Below, in pieces: positions 59,243 through 62,806 of a DNA stretch of 64,000 bases. A program made the translations under genes and the position numbers. Source of the DNA: Blakeslea trispora (lineage: Eukaryota; Mucoromycota; Mucoromycetes; Mucorales; Choanephoraceae); contig JAIWNE010000068.1 of NCBI GenBank assembly GCA_025331445.1, positions 106,059 to 170,058 on the forward strand, read 5' to 3'. The first letter of the stretch is position 1. Each line of letters begins with the position of its first letter. The notes under the pieces are model-generated. The model saw only the letters and a program-made list of their open reading frames with translations. It ran no database searches and was not told where the DNA came from.

Positions 59243-60380
59243 TCAGTCTAAGGAAATAAAGAAAACAAAGAACTAAAAAGGCTGTTTCCAGAATTAAAAA
59301 ATTATGCTTGCTCTTTTCCACTTTCTGGACTGTTACACAAGATGAAAGTCAAAGTAAGCTGATCTAAACATTTTCCTCATATTAGGAAAGCCAGTGGTAA
59401 TGGTCTAAGCAAGCATATTGACAGATTTGTTCAAATATTTATGCAATTCTTTCTTTAGAGTAAATCAGAACTTACAAAACCCCACAGAGACTTTATATAT
59501 ATCCAGAGCGCTTCAAACTTAGTTAATTAGCAAGAGTAAACAATTGGCAATCTCCAAACACATTATTTGAGAGCTAAATCTGCCTGTTTTCACACCAGCT
59601 GTTAGTTTTCTGGTTACATTTGCTGTGATTGGCAGTATATGTCAACCTTGAGACTCGTCCCAGACTCAAAAAAAATTAATGTCAGAAAAGAATTAAGCAG
59701 TGAATTTCCTTTTTGAAATTTTTTCGAAGTATTTTTTAGTCTTCCAGCTAATTAAAAAAAAAAATACCTTATAAGAAACGTTGGTTTTTCTACTCTGTAA
59801 CTCATCTGAGACTCATAACTTGAAAATAACTTTCTGAGCCAATAAAATGCCTTCCCTGAATAATTGTGTTTATGACTTCTGTAGAATTGGCATTTTGAAG
59901 CACGGAAAGAACAAACTTCACACAAGCGTCCTCAATACAATAGTGCCAGATAATCCTCCCCTTGTGTCCACTAAGGCCGCAAGAGGTAGGACACACTACT
60001 ATCTTTTATATAAATATCAAACCAATATCATTTTAGATAAAAGCGGGTTTTTCCTCCTAAAACATTAAGTTGGTCTTAACAAGTAAAAGCGGTTCTAAGC
60101 TAGAACTGAACAAATCTATTATCAAGTCCTTCTACAATGCAAGATTCCCAAGCGTTCAAAAACACAGTGTTTTGTGCCTCATCCCTCCTATAATAACATA
60201 AAACTTATTGCTGTATTTTCTTTGCCTTTTGTTTTGTATATCTATTGTTATATGAATAAGGATTTACAGCCCATCTGAGTTCTCTTTTCGACCCGCAACA
60301 CCTCCCAGAATCTCTTTAGCTTTGCCTAAGGACCATTTTATGTGTGTTTATGTTTTCGTTCCTATATATCAGATACTTGA
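59243..60380. other. Intergenic, possible relic at 59,847-60,000
   Basis: A plus-strand frame (MPSLNNCVYDFCRIGILKHG, then LNTIVPDNPPLVSTKAARG followed by GTAGGA) looks protein-like, but I cannot name it or connect it to the Fanzor-like fragment. The remainder is AT-rich without features. Confidence 0.35.
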
Positions 60381-60818
60381 GTTTTCTCTTCTCGAAAAAG
60401 GAGGTATGGCCAGCAACAACAACAACGGCAAGCACTACATATTATGTTCGTGGGTGATAGAGGCTACGGTATTGGCTCGTCCATTCGAGGACACGTTCGT
60501 CTAGGTGGTTCATGGAAGCCGAAGAAGCATAGTCTTTATACATCAGTATGTATAACCAATGAACATAACACGTCTCAAGTCTGTGTTTTTTGCTTTGAAA
60601 AAACAAGTCATCCATTGAGAATTGTAGAGAAGGATGGAAGAGAAAGTCTGAAAACGATCAATGGTACCTCTATATGCAGCAACAAGGCTTGTGTTCTTAA
60701 TTTAGCAAAACAATCCCACAAACCAAGAGACTCTCTTTCAGCCCTAGCCATTGGTATCTCTGGTGCATCTAGACTGATCGGCAAAGGAACTCTTGATGTA
60801 TTCAACCCGTATCTTTAA
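60381..60818 (+). pseudogene. C-terminal part of a Fanzor-like (eukaryotic TnpB) nuclease
   Basis: The frame is open for about 145 codons after a TGA, ending in TAA 60816-60818. It reads MFVGDRGYGIGSSIRGHVRL, then ITNEHNTSQVCVFCFEKTSH, INGTSICSNKACVLNLAKQS and KPRDSLSALAIGISG. This is the layout of the TnpB/Fanzor C-terminus: a Glu-x-x-TS segment, a zinc ribbon made of two Cys pairs (C-x2-C and C-x4-C), then the RuvC-III Asp in an RD-x-x-SA-x-AI helix. The N-terminal half with the first RuvC Asp is not found upstream, so the copy appears 5'-truncated. I recognise the block as one recurring in Mucorales genomes; the Fanzor assignment is my inference from motif order. Confidence 0.55.
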
Positions 60819-62806
60819 CAAAAGCAATCAATTCTACATTGTACTCTTTTTTGCCGTTACTTTTCCCAAAACGAAACAGAGCTAGGCTTACACCGATGGC
60901 GTGTGTGTACCTTTTAGGGTAAGTTTTTAAATGTTTATTTAAAATATTAATTAACCCGCTCCTTCTATCTACATCCACATTTATTCATCCACTGCACTTT
61001 TAAACAAATTTGTAAGTTTTCATTTCAGTCAACTCAAACTCAGAATGCTAACGTTTTTTGCGACTCATAGTGTCAGACCTATCATTGACCTCTTCATAAC
61101 ATATCTAATTAACTTGATGCTACCTTTGCTATCTGTTTAATCAAAGCTAACAAGTAGTAATCAATGTTAACAAGGCCTTATTTCTGAACACATATGGTAT
61201 AATTTTTCCAAATGAAATTTCTGTTGAACTGTGATTGAGACATTAAACAACAAGCTGTTTGCTCCTAGAGAGTTATGTTTGAAGTCCTTTGCCACGTTGT
61301 ATGCACAAAACGGCTGTAGTGCGATCAGGTCCCAAATATAAAAAGACTATATGCAGGAAGGGCTTTGAACCACATCAAGCCTTGATGTCTTATTAGCAGC
61401 AGTCACTTTCTTCTAATTCAGATTGATCGTCACTATACATAAACAAAGCATTGTCCAGCTCCATATCCTCCTAAGCAAGACAAGAAACTGCAATGTAGAA
61501 GAGGCATAGGAGATGTACTCAGTTAAGGGACTCGAATCCATGATTTAATATAAATAGCAGAAGAAAAAAAGTTATTTAGTAAATGGCAACTCTTCTTTGA
61601 TTTGTTTGTTTTATTAATATACAATTACCCTGAAGAACATCATTTCCCAAGAATCCTGTCTGAAAATGACTATTGCTGTTCAAGAACGGAAATGCAATAG
61701 TTGTTATATAGCCGTTATTTTTCCGCACACATCAAAATACTTGGACTGTCGCATCCCCATTTTTTGAAGAGCAAAAGTCATTTCCGGATAAAACTCTTCA
61801 TGAAACTCTTTGAATGTATCTTTATTTGATATGAATGAGTGCTGTAATCTTTCTTATTATATAGCACAGAAATGTACAACCGGCTTCTTGGAACAAGCAG
61901 GCTTAATTTATGGAGCTGTTACCATCAGGTTGTTTTGGAGTATCTGGAAGTAGCCTTTTGGGTAATTAAAGGATCCGCTTCGTTTTCTCTGCCCCATTTA
62001 GAGATGCTTCTGATTATCTTGTCCATGCATTTCTCTTACTCACTAGCAAACCTCCTTAGATTTGATAGAAGAAAAGAATGCTTACATATATGACTTGAGC
62101 TGGTGGGGTCAATAGGTTGCCGAGACACGGTGGTTATACAAAACGGCCACTGCGTCACAAAAATCTTAATTTGGCTTATTTATTATAAAAAGGAAAGACG
62201 TGAGATCTTGTTCGGAAGGAGAAATCGTTTTCCCGTCATAACCGAAAACATGCCAATCACATGAGTGCCCTACCAAAGACACAATTATTGCATAATGTAT
62301 TGCTCATAATGCAAGCCCAACCGATTTGTAAGTAGCAATAGAATTGCATCAAGGTCATGAAAAGTAGATGGTTTATGGATTGATAGAATCAGCACTAGCT
62401 ATTTTTTGTTCGTAGGCTTTTTAGAGTGACACGTTAGACCAGAGTGACTCAAATAATCAAACACTTTTTCACCGAAGCAGCGCACTCCGTTTAAACAGAA
62501 TCAATTTGCTTTCTAAATCGTCAAAATGAAACACTATGCATTGTTGCTGTGCAAATTGCATTTTGATCAGCATAACTTGACTTTACTAAGCTTTACATAC
62601 AACTTTATATACCTTCGTCTGCATTCTTAGTTTGAAGATGGGTCTTTGTATTATATGGCAGCATTTCTGATCTCAATCGTGTAACTTGAGATTTTCTTGG
62701 ATTTAAAAGTGGGAACACAAGAAAAAAACATATAAATATTGACACTTTTTTTGTTTAATTTTTTTCTGGTTTTATCTTTTCTGTAGACTGATCATTTCAT
62801 AAATCA
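60819..62806. other. Intergenic, 2 kb; ABC transporter promoter and possible minus-strand exons
   Basis: Protein-like minus-strand segments at 61,393-61,852 are listed separately. A TATAAATATT at 62731 lies 76 bases before the transporter ATG. The plus-strand frame at 61,872-62,093 is probably a shadow of minus-strand relic coding. Otherwise AT-rich. Confidence 0.45.
61393..61852 (-). other. Candidate orphan gene exons ending in -CC
   Basis: Two protein-like minus-strand segments are seen. 61852-61704 reads LQHSFISNKDTFKEFHEEFY, then PEMTFALQKMGMRQSKYFD. 61470-61393, after a CTTAG acceptor, reads EDMELDNALFMYSDDQSELE and ends ESDCC. A terminal Cys-Cys is a possible geranylgeranylation signal. 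The donor joining them (GTGTGC after KYFD) is weak, and no good first exon was found. It could be a host microgene or a mobile-element relic. Confidence 0.25.

Follow-up and report, generated by a model that had tools for sequence, protein, structure and literature searches.

Within a 64,000-nt stretch of the Blakeslea trispora contig JAIWNE010000068.1, hereafter the window, a plus-strand open frame of 145 codons (60381-60818) translates into NEHNTSQVCVFC...CSNKAC...RDSLSALAI, the C-terminal signature of TnpB and Fanzor nucleases. An initial annotation had described this frame as a fragment of a Fanzor-like RNA-guided nuclease, and both its extent and its residues were confirmed here, the true Fanzor-like codons starting at ~60397. 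The first five residues correspond to the left end of a transposable element, which in sister copies lies 5' of the gene. Searches of the whole genome (37.2 Mb, 285 contigs) with the fragment by tblastn returned 90 matches at E<=10, one of them the fragment itself, and 80 at E<=7.7e-4; as some genes were matched in two pieces, these do not amount to 90 genes. This recurrence, together with five other copies that show 95-98% protein identity to the fragment over residues 4-145, argues against a chance frame. Fourteen of the 90 matches fall within frames that stay open for 840-869 codons, which bears out, for the wider family, the expectation of intact members elsewhere in the genome. The same is not evident for the window's own subfamily, in which the gene region of the seven long copies differs from that of L031 by insertions and deletions, mainly of 1-2 bases and some possibly intronic, so that no copy is claimed to be intact.

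Comparison by blastn revealed that positions 59633-60395 and 60397-61075 match the two ends of ~5.3-kb elements found elsewhere in the genome. Seven sister copies match both blocks, which are ~3.9 kb apart in most of them; L035 and L038 match only the right block, and L040 a short stretch at 76%. The right block is 97-99% identical to most sister copies and 92.6% to L037. The RuvC-I half, already noticed to be missing, is absent because of an internal deletion of 3,902 bp with respect to L031. Sister copies further run 15 bp past the position equivalent to 61075 and end in ATACCCTCTCAGTAT, or in CAATAT in C264, while the window copy stops short. Devoid of both RuvC-I and the right core, the latter should neither cut nor move and should thus be dead, as had been presumed. 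The remnant is flanked by a FAD-oxidase gene (minus strand) on one side and an ABC-transporter gene (plus strand) on the other.

The ends of the element, a feature that the initial annotation missed, link it to another class of transposons. Allowing up to three mismatches, the left end was found at 27 genome places (reversed control, 0), and the 16-bp right end, with up to two, at 78 (reversed control, 7). Four of the 27 left ends lead into Fanzor matches, and 13 are followed on the same strand by matches to two domains of CryptonF recombinases, NDC10_II at ~1.0-1.3 kb and GCR1_C at ~2.2-2.6 kb, some with internal stops. One more, at C232:218370 and close to a contig end, is followed by NDC10_II only, and a partial left-end match on C270, outside the 27, is accompanied by both domains. 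Similarly, 20 of the 78 right ends lie 364-592 bp past GCR1_C and 10 lie 203-557 bp past a Fanzor match; these pairing counts drew on 11 of the 90 Fanzor and 17 of the 124 NDC10_II matches. Except for those on C279 and at C282:28148, the Crypton-type left ends (11/13) pair with a right end 3,029-3,161 bp away, thus delimiting elements of ~3.04 kb. The Fanzor elements themselves match neither NDC10_II nor GCR1_C.

Sister copies carry the direct repeat CAGTAT at both ends, and none of the three copies whose flanks were read on both sides showed a target duplication beyond this terminal repeat. Some Cryptons terminate in CAGTAA, CAGTGT or CAGTCT, last bases whose variability would fit an origin from the target. 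The passages on fungal CryptonF elements in PMC3212892 describe a tyrosine recombinase (YR), GCR1_C and terminal direct repeats that are mostly 6 bp long; the ends found here are direct repeats within the 4-6 bp of CryptonF, with neither inverted repeats nor target duplication, the window copy having lost the right one. Taken together, the shared ends, the CAGTAT repeats, the lack of target duplication and the published description are best accounted for by taking the Fanzor element to be a non-autonomous CryptonF whose cargo gene is Fanzor1-like. On the C222 contig (106771-106803), the CAGTAT that opens a Crypton left end also closes a sequence nearly identical to the right end, as though one element had integrated at the terminus of another.

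We therefore regard the window locus as a dead, internally deleted ~5.3-kb transposon whose Fanzor1-like gene lay between CryptonF ends and which would have been moved in trans and have persisted through guided cutting, a reading to which we assign a probability of about 0.83. In the longer sister copies, these ends would flank the coding sequence of a large Fanzor1-like protein, a RuvC nuclease with C4 zinc ribbon and relocated Glu. Putative CryptonF tyrosine recombinases from the ~3.04-kb elements with the same ends may mobilize them in trans, by excision of a circle that then recombines at the 6-bp CAGTAT core. The predicted nuclease, if it acts like TnpB, would cut sites that have lost the element, and repair from a remaining copy would restore it. 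The features of the window copy are compiled in Table 1.

Table 1. Anatomy of the transposon remnant in the window.
Feature	Position	Strand	Basis
Remnant of one transposon with an internal deletion and without its final 15 bp, probably a non-autonomous CryptonF-type element carrying a Fanzor1-like gene	59633..61075	+	blastn against sister copies
Left end and 5' part without gene, starting with the 6-bp core CAGTAT	59633..60395	+	89.8-96.0% identity to 7 sister copies; terminal sequence common to CryptonF-type elements
Left terminal direct repeat CAGTAT	59633..59638	+	
Deletion junction, 3,902 bp gone with respect to L031	60395..60397	+	
Open frame, 145 codons; true Fanzor-like codons from ~60397	60381..60818	+	
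Residue 61, the Glu of NEHNTS, candidate for the relocated Glu of RuvC	60561..60563	+	36 residues past conserved Gly in 11/14 proteins
C4 zinc ribbon CVFC ... CSNKAC	60582..60692	+	Family profile weakly matches bacterial TnpB at the motif
RD, candidate RuvC-III Asp	60726..60731	+	
3' non-coding right end; terminal ATACCCTCTCAGTAT of sister copies absent	60819..61075	+	

Some of the end data speak against this assignment. Nine of the 27 left ends (one of them, on C34, by a contig end) are followed by neither gene, and 48 of the 78 right ends have neither within 1 kb. In addition, a stricter 21-bp right-end pattern occurs at 11 places, corresponding to nine window-family Fanzor elements, C264:413203 (a further Fanzor match) and C230:79238, and at none of the partner Cryptons, which confines right-end sharing to the last ~16 bp. 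Such short sharing would suit a Fanzor element independent of Cryptons, with common ends derived from old gene conversion or from an end-less Crypton and dispersal by some other route. Other Fanzor-like elements of this genome (L041-L050) do end quite differently, in imperfect inverted repeats, and five of the seven copies with both ends read are bordered by 8-bp target duplications. However, both ends of the window element recur in 11 distinct Crypton-type elements that hardly vary in length, and its direct repeats come without target duplication in every copy with both flanks read, which renders independence improbable.

The second type of Fanzor-like transposon is delimited by the inverted repeats GGCGGGGCTG/GGCAAGGCTG, as in L042 (8975-9224, minus strand), and its left ends were scored at 40 genome places from 110 candidates. 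At C243:133038-133658 and C112:487203-487782, a left end of this 859-codon type (see below) precedes a weak match to the Fanzor C-terminus (E 0.4-0.5) in a frame of 87-88 codons; both short stretches are possible small deletion derivatives, and a Crypton left end begins 40 bp 5' of the one on C243. A Helitron origin of the window element was rejected: none of the 134 Helitron_like_N matches in the genome comes closer than 5 kb to the left-end sites, and the terminal hairpins are no better than those of shuffled sequences, 56/200 and 103/200 of which fold equally well. The genome is nonetheless rich in Helitrons, several of these matches lying in frames of more than 1,000 codons. A search for DUF3504 Cryptons, which lacked a positive control, yielded no match.

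We assessed membership in the Fanzor family primarily on motifs. The signature given for TnpB and Fanzor proteins in PMC3627910, D-X(125-275)-[TS][TS]xx-C4-X(5-50)-RD, is complete in 5 of 28 proteins, namely the L042 frame, P0004, P0005, P0007 and P0008, all of which show the RuvC-I motif GTDNG 203-220 residues N-terminal of TSQxC; none of 3,200 shuffles reproduced the signature. A second motif check found it in P0028 but not in P0009, P0029, P0030, P0031 and P0032, despite their TDNG, and P0033 has neither. The window fragment retains only the C-terminal half of the signature. The same source describes a Fanzor1-specific pair, G500/E536, a conserved Gly and a Glu 36 residues apart that precede the zinc ribbon. 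The Glu of NEHNTS lies at precisely this distance from a conserved Gly, which we equate with G500 by inference, and 11 of 14 proteins, the window fragment included, show the spacing of 36, with no value in P0009, P0032 and P0033. Alignment of the family profile to 23 InsQ-like TnpBs by hhalign was best at TSQxC (17 columns, probability 25.8%, a pointer rather than proof), scoring 35.2 as compared with 25.8 for the top of 40 column shuffles. Finally, among the top 50 of the 282 best Foldseek chains realigned with VIA-align, SpuFz entries ranked 7, 9, 15 and 45; their alignments were the longest (175-182 residues), with a root-mean-square deviation of 14.5-14.7 and Z within the range of unrelated helical proteins, and the absence of other nucleases from this list carries no evidential value.

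Several results count against this assignment. Read strictly, the signature fails in the other 23 of the 28 proteins, which lack the C4-RD part as written, five of them with GTDNG; its first D is also loose, since an L031 exon without RuvC-I satisfies it. The OrfB/TnpB zinc-ribbon profile PF07282 matched no scanned family member, and its 17 matches in the genome, six of them above the cut-off, all fall outside the family. The two AlphaFold models were poor (predicted local distance difference test scores of 49 and 57), and the fold check proposed initially did not deliver, Foldseek yielding nothing at E<=0.001 with either. The family is consequently filed as Fanzor1-like and not as a proven member. 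The six PF07282 places (C1:618090, C20:33602, C233:102916, C13:12014, C223:49018 and C234:213168) probably harbor canonical Fanzor or TnpB genes.

Relatives of the protein occur in Blakeslea, Choanephora, Mucor, Helicostylum, Rhizopus and Backusella. In the L042 subfamily, frames run without interruption for 859 codons, and in L041, L042 and L044 a further frame of 397-500 codons, ending in one stop, lies ahead of them; judging from the DNA and the Choanephora protein P0006, this stop may be read as intronic. A homologue is present in Mucor lusitanicus CBS 277.49, which we take to be the Mucor circinelloides genome with 10 listed Fanzor1 families, and P0008 would be one of these. In this protein of 1,268 residues, RuvC-I is located near residue 940 and is preceded by a long N-terminal part.

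Alternatively, the protein could belong to another zinc-ribbon family of Mucorales transposons that merely resembles Fanzor and has a different enzymatic or DNA-binding role. No TnpB or Fanzor match was obtained in Pfam scans of the fragment and 11 further family proteins, in an NCBIfam scan of the fragment, which matched no family, or in PDB sequence searches by phmmer and profile, the family profile giving only two weak PDB matches (E 0.44 and 4.9), neither of them a nuclease. P0008 moreover exceeds the ~600-800 residues that PMC10711439 states for Fanzor1 in the passage concerned. Nevertheless, the profile comparison and the second look at the fold both lean, weakly, to TnpB/Fanzor, and the Mucor lusitanicus homologue may point the same way; we thus hold another family to be unlikely. 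On motif and spacing, aided by the weak profile and fold support, the Fanzor1-like assignment of the B. trispora family merits high but not complete confidence.

The suggestion of adjacent guide-RNA ends found no support. The right end does not fold better than expected (z -0.49, with 58/200 shuffles folding as well) and has no Rfam match, results that weigh against guided cutting. Likewise, the identity of sister copies to L031 stays at 91-99% across almost every homologous stretch, so no special constraint is visible on the right end. That the window copy survives as a guide-RNA source for proteins encoded elsewhere, like the 'ghost' loci of S. punctatus described in part of PMC10432273, would be in line with its well-preserved right block, yet the even identity of sister copies, the loss of the last 15 bp, the lack of a stable fold and the absence of an Rfam match make it very improbable. 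We consider only tentatively, and with more doubt than belief, that a Crypton has turned into a guided homing element, in which the conserved right end ...ATACCCTCTCAGTAT would terminate a guide-RNA scaffold, flanking DNA would serve as guide, the CAGTAT core remaining where an element has left would contribute to the motif recognized, and the Fanzor would cut precisely the sites vacated by the recombinase for repair to restore the element.

The association itself is not new, since PMC10711439 counts Crypton tyrosine recombinases among Fanzor1-associated transposases, and PMC3627910 reports a partial Crypton gene in MCi-2, left unclassified. Section 12 of the latter likewise places Fanzor1-like genes on fungal DNA transposons of Mucor circinelloides (MCi-2, MCi-4 and MCi-5), Rhizopus and Phycomyces; there, MCi-4, ROr-4 and PBl-3 encode no transposase, as in the window family, whereas MCi-2A holds the partial Crypton transposase gene. 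MCi-2 is given 11-12-bp target duplications and no superfamily, in contrast to the window family, with no duplication, 6-bp CAGTAT repeats and CryptonF-type partners of full length that share both of its ends. These partners match NDC10_II and GCR1_C and share the 6-bp terminal direct repeats that PMC3212892 describes for fungal CryptonF, whereas in the window element, as in its sister copies, a Fanzor-like gene stands where the recombinase gene would be. SpuFz1 of Spizellomyces punctatus (8GKH) displays the same order of C-terminal motifs according to PMC3627910 and aligns weakly in structure with model residues 62-309, but no similarity to it was detected by phmmer or PDB profile search, and P0008 is far longer. 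Bacterial TnpB (InsQ, IS609) has the TSQxC zinc-ribbon motif in common with the family but differs in length, host and element type, and the aligned InsQ stretch has no Glu before TS.

Literature searches retrieved nothing joining 'Blakeslea trispora' or 'Mucoromycota' with 'Fanzor'. Pairing by both ends within one genome is a cleaner case than the published passages describe. As the family is too diverged for the standard profile, profile-based counts of Fanzor genes in Mucorales are probably too low. In the single genome of B. trispora, a Fanzor-type nuclease gene is concretely paired with tyrosine-recombinase transposons, each partner existing in several full-length copies with defined ends, a pairing that suits asking what a Fanzor does for a eukaryotic transposon.
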